A DNA stretch of 35,866 nt. Source: Candidatus Aenigmatarchaeota archaeon. GTDB taxonomy: Archaea > Aenigmatarchaeota > Aenigmatarchaeia > QMZP01. A program made the translations under genes and the position numbers. The stretch is from the NCBI GenBank assembly GCA_016783545.1, contig JADHWJ010000002.1, forward strand, positions 65,617 to 101,482, in the 5' to 3' direction. Below, in pieces: positions 3,383 through 35,079 of the stretch. Each line of letters starts with the position of its first letter. Within the stretch, counting starts at the first letter, position 1. The notes under the pieces are model-generated. The model worked only from the letters and a program-made list of their open reading frames with translations. It ran no database searches and had not been told where the DNA came from.

Positions 3383-6340
3383 TTAATTTCCATAAGTTTT
3401 CCTGTAAAGTTCTGTACTTTCTAGTGCTTTTACATCCCTTTTATACAAATCGTCTTTCATCTCTTTTCCTGTCCCTTTCTTATACTCTTCAAAAGAAATG
3501 CCCTGACTTTTCTGGCTCTCATCTCTATACCATTCTGGAATAACATTGAATGTGCAGAATGGGATGATCCTTCCGTCTGTCATTGCATAATGTATGCAGC
3601 ATCTTTTAACACGCTCTATGTCATAGTTGTAGAGGTCCATAAAGTGCATCATTCCCAAAAACAATGAACTTTTATGAAATGCTCCGAGCGCCTTATAGTC
3701 ATGTTTAACCAGTGCATTGTATATGATCTTTGCCAGGCCAAAACCTTCTGGTGATTTTTTCTTGTCAATAAAAGTTCTTAACTTCCATAACATTTTTGGG
3801 CCAACAATCAATTTGCTTTTGCCTGCTTCCAGTTCTTCTGATTTCTCACCTAGATATTCCAATAAACCATCAACATCGACAAACCTTGTTATTGGAACCA
3901 TCTTTCCATTATCATTGAAAACATATGTGGCCATTCCACAACTAAAGTGCGAGCTAAGATCATACTCAGCTTTTTTTGTCAGGGCTTCTACAAACCTTGT
4001 AAAGTTTGTTAGTGTTGGTACAGGATAGAAATCGTTTTTATCTATCTCTCCACCTGTTTGTTCTTGAAGCCTGTCCAAAAGGTCAGGTATTGTTATTCTC
4101 ATTTTCTCTCTTTCAGCCTTTGAAACCCTTCCCACAAGACTCACCGGCTGCATGTTAACACCCCTTACAACATCATTGTTTCTGAAACCAAATCTCACTA
4201 TATCACCAATTTCATGATCATTTACACCTTTTATAACAGTTGGTACAAGAACAGCACCCATTCCTGTTTTTCTACAGTTATTAAGAACACCTGGAATCTC
4301 CCAGTGGTTCTTTGGGTTTGTTTTTGCAGACACGCCATCAAAGCTTAAGTAGAGTGTGTTTATACCAGCAGCTCTTACTTTCTGTGCCAGTTCCAAATCC
4401 CTTGAAATATGCGTACCGTTTGTGTTCAGTTGGATATGGTCAACACCATTTTTTTTGCAGATATTTATTATATCAACAATATCTTTTCTAAGACAGGGTT
4501 CGCCTCCTGTAAGCTGAACTGCGTTGCAAGGTACGGGTTTTTCAGCCTTTAATGTTTTCACCATTTCCTTTATCTGCTCTAATGTTGGTTCATATACGTA
4601 ACCCATTCTTCCAGCATAGAAAAAGCAATTACTTATTAGGATACCATCACCAGCTATAAAGGAGTGTGAATTATCTTCTACCTCTAAATCATATACAAAT
4701 TGTTCTTTATCTTCAAATTCTTCTATGGATTTTATTTTATCTAGAATAAAATCCCCGTTAACAATGAGTTTTGTACCTCTTCTTGGAGAAAGGTTTTCTA
4801 ATTTTTTTAAATGTGATGGTTTTAGATTTAGTTTATCAATTATAGAAATCATATCTTCACCACCCATATATAATTTATACAAAGTATTCGTATTTGATAA
4901 TGGATTATTTTTCATTGACATTTTGTGAATTCTATTTTTTATCCCCAATGTTGAAAGAAGCTTTGATGTATCTGAAACAAGTTTTCTTGATACAGTTCCT
5001 ATACCAATTGAGGCACATCTTTCACCTCTTATTACATACCCATCACCATTTATTATACCTTCGAGCATTGCAATTCTTGATTGTTCATCAAAAGAACCAA
5101 AATTGATAGGAAGCCTTTTGTTATGTGCACCAGCTGGTATGTTGAGAACAAATCTAAAAATAAGATAAAGGATTTTATTACCAACATTTATCTGCTCAGC
5201 CTTGTTTTTAGTTTCAATTACTGTATATGTTAAATTTAATTTTTTCAATGAAGTTTCAATTTCATTTCTGACATATACATCTTTACACGTAAACCAAATA
5301 TTTTGTTTTGAATAATGTCCATCTGTTATGAAATATCCCATGAGTTTGGATAAATCTGATGTTATTTTTAATTCCCTTTCAAAGTTATATTTTTTAGCAT
5401 CAACACCAAATTTTACACCGTTTGCTTTAATATTCGCATTCTTCATGAATTTATAAAAATAATTCAATGGCATTGTATTTTTACTTTTCCATGAATACAT
5501 CAGTGACTTATTAAAACCAAATTTCTCTGAAAAAATATCAATTCTATCTATCTCTGAAAAATATTCAGTTATATTTCTAACATATATATGCTTCATTTCA
5601 TTTTTTGGGAGATTCCTAAAAGATTCTAATATATCTATTTTAATTCCTTTTCCAGCCTCCATATTACCTACAGTAAAAGCCGTTTCACCAATATTTGCAT
5701 TCTTTTTAAGTAAATTTTCCCCTGATTTTACAATAAATTTATGATCAATTGTTGTTGTTATCTCTTTGCCTGTTTCAGTTTTAACTTTTATAAATTTACC
5801 ATTATATCTCCTTCTAAATAACTTATTTACTTTTGTCCAGATGATTTTCCCATTTTTCATTGTCATTACTTCTATATTTTTTGGTTCTGAAAATACTCCC
5901 AACTTTCCAATTTTCTTGATATTCTTATTAAGCCATTTATCTATAAAATTTCCAATTTTGACAGTAGAAACTTTTCCATTATCTTTTACTAGTATTTCTT
6001 CGTTGCTTGGAAGGCAATACCAGCAGGTAAGATCGCATCTATTTGTGACAACAATATTGGCCAACGCTGTCTGGGACTTATGTATCTTGCAAAGTCCGCA
6101 ATCCTTTGGACATATAGGAGCATCCTTTTCCATGTTCGGATTTTCTATTCCTTTTCCATCATGTGCGAATCTCTCTGCTTTTTTGTAAAGATCATAATCA
6201 CTCCAGTAAACTTCTTCTACTTCGCCATGCTCAGGGCAGTTTTTAGAGATAAATACCTTTCCATCCCTTTCAAATATAGTCGCAGGAATAATCTTCTTGC
6301 ATTCAGGGCATAGGCTCGAAGTTTTGGATATTTCTTTCAT
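3383..6340 (-). CDS. radical SAM protein of the tetraether lipid synthase (Tes/MJ0619-like) type, intein-containing precursor
   Basis: NRCDLTCWY//CFFYAGRMGYVYEP restores CX3CX2C; QLTGGEPCLRKD; N-terminal CPEC/CPEHGEVEEVYWSDYDLYKKAERF and CPKDCGLCKIH resemble the MJ0619 family. Confidence 0.8.
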   Translation of the reverse strand: MKEISKTSSLCPECKKIIPATIFERDGKVFISKNCPEHGEVEEVYWSDYDLYKKAERFAHDGKGIENPNMEKDAPICPKDCGLCKIHKSQTALANIVVTNRCDLTCWYCLPSNEEILVKDNGKVSTVKIGNFIDKWLNKNIKKIGKLGVFSEPKNIEVMTMKNGKIIWTKVNKLFRRRYNGKFIKVKTETGKEITTTIDHKFIVKSGENLLKKNANIGETAFTVGNMEAGKGIKIDILESFRNLPKNEMKHIYVRNITEYFSEIDRIDIFSEKFGFNKSLMYSWKSKNTMPLNYFYKFMKNANIKANGVKFGVDAKKYNFERELKITSDLSKLMGYFITDGHYSKQNIWFTCKDVYVRNEIETSLKKLNLTYTVIETKNKAEQINVGNKILYLIFRFVLNIPAGAHNKRLPINFGSFDEQSRIAMLEGIINGDGYVIRGERCASIGIGTVSRKLVSDTSKLLSTLGIKNRIHKMSMKNNPLSNTNTLYKLYMGGEDMISIIDKLNLKPSHLKKLENLSPRRGTKLIVNGDFILDKIKSIEEFEDKEQFVYDLEVEDNSHSFIAGDGILISNCFFYAGRMGYVYEPTLEQIKEMVKTLKAEKPVPCNAVQLTGGEPCLRKDIVDIINICKKNGVDHIQLNTNGTHISRDLELAQKVRAAGINTLYLSFDGVSAKTNPKNHWEIPGVLNNCRKTGMGAVLVPTVIKGVNDHEIGDIVRFGFRNNDVVRGVNMQPVSLVGRVSKAEREKMRITIPDLLDRLQEQTGGEIDKNDFYPVPTLTNFTRFVEALTKKAEYDLSSHFSCGMATYVFNDNGKMVPITRFVDVDGLLEYLGEKSEELEAGKSKLIVGPKMLWKLRTFIDKKKSPEGFGLAKIIYNALVKHDYKALGAFHKSSLFLGMMHFMDLYNYDIERVKRCCIHYAMTDGRIIPFCTFNVIPEWYRDESQKSQGISFEEYKKGTGKEMKDDLYKRDVKALESTELYRKTYGN
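4628..6016 (-). other. intein (463 aa) with LAGLIDADG endonuclease domain, inserted in radical SAM CX3CX2C motif
   Basis: Block A CLPSNEEILV; LMGYFITDGH and LEGIINGDGYV LAGLIDADG motifs; C-terminal YDLEVEDNSHSFIAGDGILISN followed by Cys+1. Confidence 0.92.
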
Positions 6341-6440
6341 ATAAAATATTATATTTTTATATTTATAAACTTTTAATAGTTTTAAAAAGTATTAAATACT
6401 TATTTAAATGTATTATAACTAAATATAATTTGTGATATAT

Positions 6441-6677
6441 ATGGCAAAGGTAAGCGTATTCAGCACACCTGCATGTTCTTGGTGTGTTAAGTTAAAGGAA
6501 TGGCTAAAACAGCAAAAAATAGAATTCGAAGACATAGATGTATCAGTTGACCAAGAAAAAGCAAAGTATATGGTTGAAAAAACAGGTCAAATGAGCGTGC
6601 CTGTAACAGAGATTGATGGAGAATTTGTTATTGGTTTTGATATAGAAAAACTAAAAGAACTCTTGAAAATAAAATGA
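6441..6677 (+). CDS. glutaredoxin/NrdH-like redoxin (CSWC)
   Basis: VFSTPACSWCVKLKEWLKQQKIEFEDIDVS...VPVTEIDGEFVIGFD. Confidence 0.85.
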   Translation: MAKVSVFSTPACSWCVKLKEWLKQQKIEFEDIDVSVDQEKAKYMVEKTGQMSVPVTEIDGEFVIGFDIEKLKELLKIK

Positions 6678-15408: not shown

Positions 15409-15648
15409 ATGTCAAAAGGTCCAGATGCTAAAAAGATTGATGATATAATGAAAGTTCTTAAAAGAACGGGAAAAGAAGGAATATGGATAAGAGAATTAGC
15501 AAGACAGGCAGGTATGCCCATAGCAACTGTCTTTTATTACCTAAACAACTTTATGCAAGATAATATTAAAATTGAACCTGCCATTTTTGGTAGTATTGAG
15601 CATAAACAAATGAAAATTGTAAAATTAAGGAGAGACAAAAATGTTTAA
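15409..15648 (+). CDS. small winged-helix DNA-binding protein
   Basis: IWIRELARQAGMPIATVFYYLNNFM; SD GTGAT before ATG. Confidence 0.7.
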   Translation: MSKGPDAKKIDDIMKVLKRTGKEGIWIRELARQAGMPIATVFYYLNNFMQDNIKIEPAIFGSIEHKQMKIVKLRRDKNV

Positions 15649-16690
15649 CTTGCTTAAACTACATCAGTCAATTGATATCGGTCCCAACTCTTGGATATGT
15701 TTTGGTGGAAATAATTTGCATGAAGAAGTAAAATTAGCAATTGAAAGAAGTGGTAGGACACGCAAAGAAATTGTAAGGGATCTCTCTGAAAAATTCAACT
15801 GTAGTAAAGGGCCATTTGAAGAATCATTCTATAATCATAAATGGATACCAATACCAATATTAAATTTTCTTATTGATAATAGAATAATGTTCAAAAATGT
15901 CATTTTAAGAAATACAGAAAAATTAAAAGTAAATACATCAAAAGCAAAACCAATTACAGCAGTGAAAAATTTAACAATTGATTTATGTAAAATAGCTGGA
16001 GCATTTGCAGCAGATGGTAATTTACATTTCAGAATAGGGTTTCAAGGAAAATCGAAAAAACATATGAATCTTTTTGATGATTATTTTAGATTAGGTAAAC
16101 TTTATAGATTTAGAACAAACAATATCAAGTTGGCTTCAAAATTTGCTACAAAAATAAATCAGAAAAACATAAGGATGTGGCAAGATTATAATATAGATTT
16201 AACGGACGGATATAAGATATCAGTAAAAAAATATAAGAAATTAATAGAGAAAACGTTTAACTTAAATTTACCCAAATTAAGAGAATTTAGAAATGCATGG
16301 AGATTGAACTTTTCAAATAAAATTATAGCAAGATATCTAACAACATTTTTTGGTTTTCCAACTGGTAAAAAGACTATGGTTGTTAATGAACCTAAAATTA
16401 TAAAAGATAGAGGAAACAAGTTTAGAGGAGCATTCTTACAAGGTCTTCTCACATTTGATGGGTGTGTAAATAAAAGAGGTGTGGTATATTTTCTTAGTAA
16501 AAGTAAAAGATTAATTAACTCTGCAAATGAAATTATGATTAACAATAATATAAATCCGCAGATTTATAATGATATTAAAAGGGAAAGATGGCAAATAAGG
16601 CTTAGAAAAATAGACTCTGAAAAATGTTTGAAGTTCTTTGAGCCATATACGGAAAAATGGTCGAAATTAAAGGTGTATTATGGACTATAA
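15641..16690 (+). CDS. free-standing LAGLIDADG homing endonuclease-like protein
   Basis: two motifs: LCKIAGAFAADGNLHF and FLQGLLTFDGCVN; N-terminal HTH-like segment. Confidence 0.82.
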   Translation: MFNLLKLHQSIDIGPNSWICFGGNNLHEEVKLAIERSGRTRKEIVRDLSEKFNCSKGPFEESFYNHKWIPIPILNFLIDNRIMFKNVILRNTEKLKVNTSKAKPITAVKNLTIDLCKIAGAFAADGNLHFRIGFQGKSKKHMNLFDDYFRLGKLYRFRTNNIKLASKFATKINQKNIRMWQDYNIDLTDGYKISVKKYKKLIEKTFNLNLPKLREFRNAWRLNFSNKIIARYLTTFFGFPTGKKTMVVNEPKIIKDRGNKFRGAFLQGLLTFDGCVNKRGVVYFLSKSKRLINSANEIMINNNINPQIYNDIKRERWQIRLRKIDSEKCLKFFEPYTEKWSKLKVYYGL

Positions 16691-19893: not shown

Positions 19894-20001
19894 TAGCCCC
19901 GCCAGGATTCGAACCTGGGTCACGAGGTCCAGGGCCTCGCATACTTAGACCATAATACAGCTCAATAAGCTGAATATGTTTGACCACTGTACTACAGGGC
20001 T
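19894..20001 (-). tRNA. tRNA-Gln(CUG)-like gene with a ~34-35 nt D-loop insertion/intron
   Basis: acceptor AGCCCTG/CGGGGCT (A1-U72), anticodon arm CGAGG-CCCTGGA-CCTCG, T arm CCAGG-TTCGAAT-CCTGG; GTAC/GTAT D-stem only pairs once ~19946-19981 is removed. Confidence 0.75.
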
Positions 20002-31857: not shown

Positions 31858-34800
31858 ATGGAATGTCCATTTTGTAATAATAAAGAAACAAAGGTTCTTG
31901 ACAAAAGAAAGTCAGATAGGCTTATCAACAGAAGAAGAAGGGAATGTCTGAAATGCGAAAAAAGATTCACAACACACGAGAAGATAACGAATCTTCTGAC
32001 AAAGGTAAAGAAGAGAAATGGAAAGCTAGTTGATTTTGATCAGGAAAAGATTGCAAATGCTATCTGGAAAGCAGCAGAGTCAATGGGCGGAACAGACAAA
32101 GAGATGTCAAAAGTGCTTTCAGACAAAGTTGTTTCCACAATTGAAGAGAAATTTGGCGGAGTGACAATACCTAGTGTTGAGCAGGTGCAGGATATTGTTG
32201 AAAAAGTTCTGGTTGAAACAGGACATTACAAGACAGCCAAGGCTTATATTATATATAGGAAACGACATGAAAAAATAAGGGAGACAAAGAATCTAATAGT
32301 TGATGTTAATAGCACAATAAGCGAATATTTGGATCAAACAGATTGGAGGGTTAGAGAAAATGCAAATGAAGCATTTTCTTTTTCCGGCTTGCTCTTACAT
32401 ACAGCTGGAAAAGTAATGTCTAATTACAATCTAAATGAAATGTATAGTGGTCCGATATCAGAAGCGCATAAGAAAGCATATATCCATATACATGACTTGA
32501 GTCATGGTGTTATCGGTTATTGTGCGGGATGGTCACTAAAGAATCTACTTCTACTAGGTTTTGGCGGTGTACCAAATAAGGTAGACTGCAAGCCAGGCAA
32601 GCATCTAAGTACGGTTGTTCATCAGATGGTAAATTATATTGGCTGCCTTCAGATGGAATTTGCAGGTGCCCAGGCATTTAGTTCTGTTGATACACTTCTT
32701 GCACCCTTTGTGAGAACAGATAATCTTGAATATAAACGGGTTAAGCAAAATATGCAGCAGCTTGTATTCAGTTTGAACATACCATCAAGGTGGGGATGTT
32801 TTAGCGAGGATACTGAAATCCTAACAGATAATGGATGGAAACTGGGAAAAGACCTAAACGTAAGTGATATAATAGCAACATTTAACACAGAATCAGAAGA
32901 GATAGAATATCTACCTGTTCAAAAAATGACAAAGTATCATTACAACGGCAAAATGATAAACTTGAAAAACAGAATAACCGATCAGCTTGTAACACCAAAT
33001 CACAGAGTTTTAAGAAGAATACACAATTACAAAAAAGGTATTTCAGAATCAAAATATGTTTTCGAAGAAGCAGATCAGTTGAAAACAAAGATTCCGCTTA
33101 TACCTATTGGTGCCAAGTTCATGGGAGAGAAAATGGATAAAAATATTGTAAAACTTCTTTCATGGATAGTTTCCGAGGGGAGCCTTTGTGAAAAGGAAAG
33201 GATAGTCATATATCAATCACATGAAAAGAATCCAGAAAACTGTAATGAAATAAGAGAAATATTGAATGATTTGGATATGCCTTTTGATGAAAAATTAAGA
33301 AGGTCTGGATTTACAGGTAAAATGAGCTGCATGAGATTCAGACTAAACAGGCCAATATCAAACCAAATATATGAGAATTATTTCCCAGGATATAAAAAAC
33401 AGATACCAGATACAATGAGAAATCTATCAACAAACCTTGGAAAGGATTTTATCGATACCTACATGAAAGCAGATGGTAATATTGAAGATAGAAAGCTATT
33501 TACAAAAAGCAAAGAAGATGCAGACCTTTTGCAAGAGATAATAGTCAAAGCTGGTTGGGGAACCACCCTAAGAAAAGATAAAAACGGTATTTATGTGGTT
33601 AGAGTTATAATGCATGATTTCACACAGATAAGTGAAATAGAAGAAGTTGATTATAATGGTACTGTTTGGTGTCCAACTACAGACAACGGAACAGTTGTTG
33701 TGAGAAGAAAGGGAAAGGTCTTCATAAGCGGTAATTCACAATATCCATTTTCTAACCTTACTTTTGACTGGGTTGTTCCCGAAGACATGAAAAAAGAAAA
33801 AGCAATAGTAGCAGGCAAAGAACAGGATTTCACATACGGGGACTGCCAGAAAGAGATGGACATGGTAAACAGGGCATTCCTTGAAGTTATGACAGAAGGA
33901 GATGCAAATGGGTCTGTTTTCACATTTCCAATACCAACATACAATATAACAAAGGATTTTGACTGGGACTCTGAGAACGCTAAACTGCTTTTTGAATTAA
34001 CAGCAAAATACGGTCTGCCGTATTTTCAGAATTATGTTGGTTCTGGACTTGATCCAAAATCGATTCATGCAATGTGCTGCAGATTAAATCTAGACCAAAA
34101 TGAATTAATGAAAAGACCAGGTAGCATGTGGGGTCCTGGGGATTCGACAGGATCAGTAGGTGTAGTAACAATAAACCTTAACAGAATTGCATATGAAGCA
34201 AGGAGAGATTTCGAAGGAGATAAAGATGTCATCAATAAGGCAAAAAAACTATACCTGAAAAAGCTTCATAATTACATGGTTCTTTGTAAAGATTCACTTG
34301 AAACAAAGAGAGAGGTTATTGAAAGGAATATGGAAAACGGGCTTATGCCATTCACAAAAAGATATTTGGGGACATTCAAGAATCATTTCTCAACAATAGG
34401 GCTCTGTGGAATGAATGAAGCATGTTTGAATTTATTAGGTGTTGATATATCAACGCCAGAAGGAAAGGCATTTGCAATTGAAACACTGAAATTCATGTCA
34501 GAGAAATGCAAAGAGTTCCAGCAAGAAACAGGAAACCTCTATAATCTTGAGGCAACACCAGCTGAATCAACAGCGTATAGGCTTGCAAAGGAAGATAAGA
34601 AACTATATGGTAAAAAAATAATGACTTCAGGGGACAAGGTACCATTCTTGACAAATTCAACATACCTGCCTGTTGACAAGACAGACGATGTTGTTTTTGC
34701 ACTAAAGCATCAGAATGATATACAGCCATTATATACAGGGGGTACGATGTTTCATACATTCCTTGGAGAAAAAATGATAAGTGGTGATGCAGCAAAAATG

Positions 34801-35079
34801 CTTGTGAAAAAGATAGCAGAGAATACAAGATTGCCATACTTCTCAATAACACCAACATTTAGTGTGTGTAGAGATCATGGATATCTGAAAGGAGAGCAAT
34901 TCAAATGTCCAACCTGTCAGAAAGATTGCGAAGTATATACAAGGATAGTTGGATACTTCAGGTCAGTTCAACAGTGGAATGAAGGAAAGAAAGAGGAATA
35001 TAGCAAAAGAGTGGCTTATTTAGAGAAAAAAGCAATGGAAAATCCCATAAAAATAACAACATCAAAATTACCTAAATAG
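31858..35079 (+). CDS. nrdD: class III anaerobic ribonucleoside-triphosphate reductase with N-terminal NrdR-like zinc ribbon + ATP cone and intein
   Basis: MECPFCNNKETKVLDKRKSDRLINRRRRECLKCEKRFTTHE (NrdR-like); ATP cone; NrdD core; CPTCQKDC and glycyl loop RIVGYF. Confidence 0.95.
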   Translation: MECPFCNNKETKVLDKRKSDRLINRRRRECLKCEKRFTTHEKITNLLTKVKKRNGKLVDFDQEKIANAIWKAAESMGGTDKEMSKVLSDKVVSTIEEKFGGVTIPSVEQVQDIVEKVLVETGHYKTAKAYIIYRKRHEKIRETKNLIVDVNSTISEYLDQTDWRVRENANEAFSFSGLLLHTAGKVMSNYNLNEMYSGPISEAHKKAYIHIHDLSHGVIGYCAGWSLKNLLLLGFGGVPNKVDCKPGKHLSTVVHQMVNYIGCLQMEFAGAQAFSSVDTLLAPFVRTDNLEYKRVKQNMQQLVFSLNIPSRWGCFSEDTEILTDNGWKLGKDLNVSDIIATFNTESEEIEYLPVQKMTKYHYNGKMINLKNRITDQLVTPNHRVLRRIHNYKKGISESKYVFEEADQLKTKIPLIPIGAKFMGEKMDKNIVKLLSWIVSEGSLCEKERIVIYQSHEKNPENCNEIREILNDLDMPFDEKLRRSGFTGKMSCMRFRLNRPISNQIYENYFPGYKKQIPDTMRNLSTNLGKDFIDTYMKADGNIEDRKLFTKSKEDADLLQEIIVKAGWGTTLRKDKNGIYVVRVIMHDFTQISEIEEVDYNGTVWCPTTDNGTVVVRRKGKVFISGNSQYPFSNLTFDWVVPEDMKKEKAIVAGKEQDFTYGDCQKEMDMVNRAFLEVMTEGDANGSVFTFPIPTYNITKDFDWDSENAKLLFELTAKYGLPYFQNYVGSGLDPKSIHAMCCRLNLDQNELMKRPGSMWGPGDSTGSVGVVTINLNRIAYEARRDFEGDKDVINKAKKLYLKKLHNYMVLCKDSLETKREVIERNMENGLMPFTKRYLGTFKNHFSTIGLCGMNEACLNLLGVDISTPEGKAFAIETLKFMSEKCKEFQQETGNLYNLEATPAESTAYRLAKEDKKLYGKKIMTSGDKVPFLTNSTYLPVDKTDDVVFALKHQNDIQPLYTGGTMFHTFLGEKMISGDAAKMLVKKIAENTRLPYFSITPTFSVCRDHGYLKGEQFKCPTCQKDCEVYTRIVGYFRSVQQWNEGKKEEYSKRVAYLEKKAMENPIKITTSKLPK
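32797..33735 (+). other. intein (313 aa) in NrdD with degenerate LAGLIDADG-like domain
   Basis: starts CFSEDTEILTDNGWK, LVTPNHRVL block B; ends KGKVFISGN followed by Ser+1; exteins join as PSRWG/SQYPFSN. Confidence 0.92.

Follow-up and report, generated by a model that had tools for sequence, protein, structure and literature searches.

A homing-type intein placed before the third radical SAM cysteine of an archaeal tetraether lipid synthase

The intein found in the window, a stretch of 35,866 nucleotides from a Candidatus Aenigmatarchaeota archaeon (contig JADHWJ010000002.1), interrupts a predicted tetraether lipid synthase (Tes), the enzyme that makes the membrane-spanning lipids of archaea. 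It is best explained, with good confidence, as a homing class-1 intein occupying a known allelic site immediately before the third cysteine of the radical SAM motif C-x3-C-x2-C, where a redox trap would arise as a chemical by-product. Two results stand out as most useful: the host of a published Pyrococcus abyssi intein is re-identified, very probably as Tes, and a natural panel of alleles becomes available for testing conditional splicing.

By its predicted activity, the host protein is the archaeal tetraether lipid synthase Tes/GDGT-MAS. Once spliced (residues 1-108 joined to residues 572-985, 522 amino acids), it reaches 728.6 bits against the Tes equivalog NF045702, whose cut-off is 450, and matches the M. 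jannaschii enzyme (MjGDGT-MAS, PDB 7tol/7tom) with an E-value of 2.5e-142. For MjGDGT-MAS, whose structure is solved, the residues that bind the metal sites are published (PMC9433317), and the parts of the precursor can be set against them as follows.

3383..6340, minus strand: intein-containing Tes precursor, 985 amino acids, from the translated open reading frame and its match to NF045703
6017..6340, minus strand: N-extein, residues 1-108, ending in NRC(102)DLTC(106)WY, its junction set by intein-free relatives
6227..6310, minus strand: rubredoxin-type iron site, C11, C14, C35 and H38, aligned to C9, C12, C33 and H36 of MjGDGT-MAS
6080..6112, minus strand: N-terminal auxiliary [4Fe-4S] ligands C77, C81, C84 and H87, aligned to C73, C77, C80 and a His of MjGDGT-MAS
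6035..6037, minus strand: Cys102, first radical SAM cluster ligand, aligned to C98 of MjGDGT-MAS
6023..6025, minus strand: Cys106, second cluster ligand and also the -3 cysteine of the N-extein (redox-trap position), aligned to C102 of MjGDGT-MAS
4628..6016, minus strand: intein, 463 amino acids, residues 109-571, class-1 splicing domain with LAGLIDADG homing endonuclease
6014..6016, minus strand: codon of intein Cys1, residue 109, a cysteine in 23/23 aligned allelic inteins
5741..5752, minus strand: intein block B, TIDH (TxxH), T and H in 23/23 allelic inteins
5318..5344, minus strand: LAGLIDADG motif 1, LMGYFITDG, catalytic Asp kept, as in 23/23
5039..5068, minus strand: LAGLIDADG motif 2, MLEGIINGDG, catalytic Asp kept, as in 22/23
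4658..4696, minus strand: intein block F, VYDLEVEDNSHSF, Asp and His in 23/23
4628..4651, minus strand: intein block G, GDGILISN, with a penultimate Ser replacing the usual His, Ser-Asn in 23/23
4628..4630, minus strand: codon of the last intein Asn, residue 571
4625..4627, minus strand: Cys572, third cluster ligand and +1 splicing nucleophile, aligned to C105 of MjGDGT-MAS
3383..4627, minus strand: C-extein, residues 572-985 and stop codon, starting C(572)FFYAG
4496..4510, minus strand: TGGEP motif of the radical SAM core; in genome G006, Tes has another, different intein at this place
3554..3601, minus strand: C-terminal auxiliary cluster region CCIHY...C, including the conserved Tyr (Tyr459 of MjGDGT-MAS)

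The rubredoxin-type site, the cluster ligands and the conserved Tyr are thus as in 7tol/7tom. In the numbering of the spliced protein, the labile methionine is kept as Met435 (Met439 in MjGDGT-MAS) and the conserved tyrosine as Tyr455, while the C-terminal cluster cysteines checked in the alignment to MjGDGT-MAS are also retained. Since the third radical SAM cysteine is a cluster ligand in the published structure (PMC9433317), the unspliced protein is very likely inactive, and splicing would be needed to obtain an active radical SAM site.

Tes is also encoded in two small, single-contig genomes of the same phylum (L021 in G118 and L035 in G099). It has been suggested that Tes genes in assemblies from DPANN may come from the host organism (PMC8941075); the two single-contig genomes speak against this suggestion, the phylum being placed within DPANN by inference.

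The intein itself is recognized by both of its termini and by its endonuclease, with matches far above chance level: 58.9 bits for the intein N-terminus (TIGR01445, cut-off 24.5), 24.3 bits for the C-terminus (TIGR01443, cut-off 15.6), and 57.5 bits each for the Pfam models Intein_splicing (cut-off 35.8) and LAGLIDADG_3 (cut-off 22.5). The hallmarks of a class-1 intein are all found, namely Cys1, the TxxH of block B, the Asp and His of block F, the C-terminal Asn571 and Cys572 at position +1, together with two LAGLIDADG motifs that hold their catalytic Asp (ITDG and NGDG). The preliminary description had placed the intein at 4628-6016, between the second and third cysteines of CX3CX2C, and codon positions and intein models show these coordinates to be exact to the base. 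Intein-free relatives read CWYCFF across the junction without a gap, which establishes the splice points as correct; together with the translation, it bears out that Cys1 follows CWY and that the third cysteine is the +1 nucleophile. In the proposed mechanism, Cys1 would attack the carbonyl of Tyr108, Cys572 would take over the N-extein, Asn571 would cyclise, preceded by Ser instead of His, and the ligated host would in this way acquire its authentic third cluster ligand.

The only usual, though not obligatory, feature missing from the splicing domain is the penultimate His, replaced by Ser in all 23 allelic inteins. Active inteins lacking this residue exist (PMC4031507), and splicing is not called into question simply by a serine common to all alleles, although this residue could make C-terminal cleavage slow. 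This residue might also be taken as a sign of decay, in which case the intein would be a poorly splicing remnant no longer capable of homing, and the organism would contain little active Tes. The intein does sit on the longest branch of the intein tree (2.17) and has a letter composition unlike that of the others. However, Cys1, TxxH, the block F Asp and His, the terminal Asn, the +1 Cys and both LAGLIDADG Asp residues are retained, as are the metal ligands of the host, which would not last without splicing; the serine, moreover, is shared by every aligned allele. Decay is therefore highly improbable, and the intein is read in what follows as a homing element predicted to splice.

The insertion site is already curated by NCBI as NF045703 (rSAM_Tes_intein, "Tes, intein-containing"). 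This model describes the same host, insertion site and a homologous intein, and it aligns end to end with the precursor in one continuous alignment covering residues 6-983. Nevertheless, the score of 1060 bits stays below the curated cut-off of 1700, so that the precursor falls outside the model as curated; it also lacks the N-terminal extension of about 50 residues present in the model, and belongs to an organism of another phylum. A literature search for Tes together with intein returned nothing. The intein is a divergent new member at the Tes site, in a phylum for which no earlier report was found.

The preliminary description had proposed that homologs be surveyed for inteins at this position, and the survey found them at the same Tes site in 23 further genomes. 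A two-row intein profile, searched against 393 genomes, recovered five strong allelic inteins outside the phylum (447-490 bits), after which scores drop to 165 bits. The host-based survey locates most of the inteins in the family containing Pyrococcus (f36), with 17 of approximately 87 species for which the site is covered; elsewhere the site is mostly empty. Two genomes carry the intein in the order of G342, both with a Thermococcus-like Tes, three in the order of G163, all from genus g111, and two of about 90, by a count from the listing, in the phylum of the window (the genome of the window itself, G000, and G069). The locus in G069 (L049) was also the sole return when genome contigs were scanned with the intein, and a scan of viral contigs showed no relative.

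The intein of the window is 35-42% identical to the other allelic inteins. Residue conservation was counted over 23 alignable inteins, comprising 22 of the others and that of the window, the intein of G470 being split over contigs. Cys1, TxxH, the block F Asp and His, the terminal Ser-Asn and the +1 Cys are invariant, and both endonuclease Asp residues are kept in 22 of the 23. Most of the aligned inteins have no cysteine apart from Cys1, hence an intein-internal disulfide is not a common theme among them.

Three members of family f47 (L080 in G477, L054 in G342 and L111 in G480) have a Thermococcus-like Tes, 77-81% identical, and G477 additionally retains a native-type copy of the gene. Their presence in f47 reflects either gene transfer or assembly contamination.

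The distribution and divergence of the element bear on how it came to occupy this site. On a host tree of 108 rows, the presence and absence of the intein requires 17 changes, 13 of which are forced by well-supported branches. The 1365-nt inteins of G458 and G463 are 100.0% identical in DNA, whereas their C-exteins are 92.7% identical, and the inteins of G458 and G459 reach 98.6% against 88.8% for the C-exteins; elsewhere the inteins diverge faster than the exteins, with a mean amino-acid identity of 73% versus 86%. Recent sideways transfer of the Tes intein among relatives is in this way demonstrated at the level of sequence. Moreover, when 1599 segments of 18 nt were compared over 86 intein-free Tes genes, the one with the insertion at its centre was the most conserved. 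Patchy presence, kept endonuclease motifs, identical copies and a conserved target fit the marks of a homing endonuclease element. Two reasons are proposed for its presence here: the endonuclease would target the least variable stretch of the gene, and imprecise loss of the intein would destroy the active site of Tes. As homing explains the placement, a use for the host is unnecessary to explain it, though compatible with it.

For sister species of genus g111, whose inteins are 56% and C-exteins 89% identical, separate gains of the intein were considered and set aside, since the AU test does not reject a single intein clade in this genus (p 0.31), nor in family f47 (p 0.38).

One relative at this site appears to have been described under another name. 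Reviews (PMC10663303, PMC3922620) describe the splicing of the "MoaA" intein from P. abyssi (Callahan et al. 2011) as governed by a disulfide that links Cys-3 and Cys1, and they relate this to the oxygen-labile nature of the enzyme. Among the genomes surveyed, G202 is P. abyssi, since its PolC intein is identical over 185 of 185 residues to the "Pab polC intein" of PDB 2lcj. Its intein-bearing frames, named by eye, are RIR1, IF2, MCM, KlbA, RFC, PolII, VMA, RtcB and Tes, and Tes, at 1052 amino acids, is the one radical SAM match of this genome in a frame of intein length, the frames of the others having at most 605. MoaA itself was rejected as the host, because every full-length copy of the MoaA equivalog recovered in the family, that of G202 included, is a single uninterrupted frame. 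Given that Tes is the sole intein-bearing radical SAM protein, that MoaA is uninterrupted and that the junction of P. abyssi Tes reads CWY|C, the Cys-3/Cys1 geometry, it can be deduced with high confidence that what was published as the "MoaA" intein is that of Tes, named after an earlier annotation. The host is thus named MoaA in the reviews and Tes in the present reading, which links a published but isolated case of redox trapping to its probable real host.

The window precursor has the same geometry, with Cys106 at position -3 of Cys1 (Cys109) in a radical SAM protein, as in the P. abyssi allele. Its intein is 37% identical to that of P. abyssi Tes, and reports of redox trapping concern P. 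abyssi alone; by this precedent, a redox trap is probable here too. Oxidation would form the Cys106-Cys109 disulfide, and splicing would be held until reducing conditions return. Other inteins linked to redox conditions resemble this one in part. The fused split DnaE intein from Synechocystis has the same -3/1 disulfide geometry, with an engineered Cys-3 (PMC3922620), whereas the -3 cysteine of the window precursor is a native cluster ligand. The PolII intein from P. abyssi (PDB 2lcj) shares Cys1 and Cys+1, between which a disulfide blocks splicing (PMC3922620), but it resides in another host and site, has no endonuclease and ends in Gln. In Mycobacterium tuberculosis, oxidants inhibit splicing of the intein in SufB (PMC6195587), which is also an iron-sulphur protein, though a cluster-assembly scaffold rather than a radical SAM enzyme, with another site and intein.

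Such a trap could have been put to physiological use, the intein being kept because disulfide-blocked splicing delays assembly of the oxygen-labile Tes until the cell returns to a reduced state. In favour of this, the protein has Cys-3, Cys1 and Cys+1, redox trapping is reported for the allelic intein in P. abyssi (PMC10663303, PMC3922620), and a gene for a YruB-type glutaredoxin (6432-6677, plus strand) begins just upstream of Tes on the opposite strand. Nonetheless, most relatives, close sister species included, lack the intein, the homing motifs are retained as in a mobile element, and the junction cysteines are dictated by cluster binding and therefore give no separate indication that a switch was selected for. 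No glutaredoxin neighbour is found at 116 other loci, nearly all of them Tes, and for this reason a functional link between the glutaredoxin and Tes was dropped. Although a physiological switch is possible, this explanation for the maintenance of the intein is unlikely, and the disulfide trap is preferably read as a chemical by-product of the site. With about two dozen natural alleles beside many intein-free sister species, whether the intein serves its host becomes directly testable, and the comparison is practical, as there are relatives with and without the element and tetraether lipids are measurable as a read-out. Thermococcus is genetically tractable.

The preliminary description had also held that the radical SAM motif forms only after splicing. 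This stands for the authentic third ligand, C572; as a pattern, though, the motif is already present in the precursor, which reads C102-x3-C106-x2-C109 with the intein Cys1 in the place of the third ligand. Because of this mimicry, the precursor could trap a metal or form the Cys106-Cys109 disulfide. It can be imagined that Zn, Fe or a [4Fe-4S] cluster is bound by C102, C106 and Cys1. The splicing nucleophile would then be engaged as a ligand, and splicing would track metal or cluster status; divalent ions are indeed reported to inhibit inteins (PMC4031507). The mimicry is nevertheless automatic for any intein that begins with Cys and is placed before a Cys, and the fold predicted for the precursor from a two-row input is unusable as a model (mean pLDDT 37), which leaves this gate very unlikely next to the by-product reading.

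Cysteines of radical SAM proteins are found at the junctions of other inteins as well. The same genome encodes a second radical SAM protein (L188, G000:C8:87573-90443), HpnJ/BchE-like but below the cut-offs of both families, with a 476-aa intein that precedes the last cysteine of C-x4-C-x2-C (KCTF|C...KN|CSW), a place corresponding to the Tes site. Its likeness to the Tes intein profile is weak (65 bits, mainly in the endonuclease part), and the orthologues of the protein in G024, G140 and G117 have no intein. In a radical SAM/SPASM-type protein (L194, G045:C22), the intein lies at DIWP|C...HN|C, and its +1 cysteine, within a C-terminal Cys-rich region, may be an auxiliary cluster ligand. The different intein in the Tes of G006 (L040, G006:C11, 878-2494), placed just before TGGEP, has the junctions VQF|S...HN|TGG. 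Cysteines of radical SAM proteins would thus repeatedly act as +1 nucleophiles of different inteins. This points to the third cysteine of the motif as a place where inteins land repeatedly. A broader proposal, in which the decoy C-x3-C-x2-C holds Fe, Zn, a nascent [4Fe-4S] cluster or a disulfide and thereby gates the assembly of Tes, and with it the membrane lipids, by redox or metal status, could draw on the intein of another lineage at the same position in the second radical SAM enzyme, and is quite unlikely.

Besides these, the intein of this genome closest to that of Tes in the profile search is a 529-aa element within GDAAGQVKPW|SGGG of a geranylgeranyl reductase family protein (L189, G000:C8:64500-68500). 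Geranylgeranyl reductase acts at an earlier step of archaeal lipid synthesis. Within the window, the anaerobic ribonucleotide reductase NrdD (31858-35079, plus strand) also carries an intein (SRWG|CFSEDTEIL...FISGN|SQYPF); it has an N-terminal NrdR-like zinc ribbon and an ATP cone, and adjoins the radical SAM activase NrdG. A free-standing, non-intein LAGLIDADG protein of 349 amino acids (15641-16690, plus strand) is encoded directly before a GatB-like gene. Finally, a 108-nt tRNA match at 19894-20001 (minus strand) was seen by Rfam but missed by ARAGORN, and is therefore probably intron-bearing.
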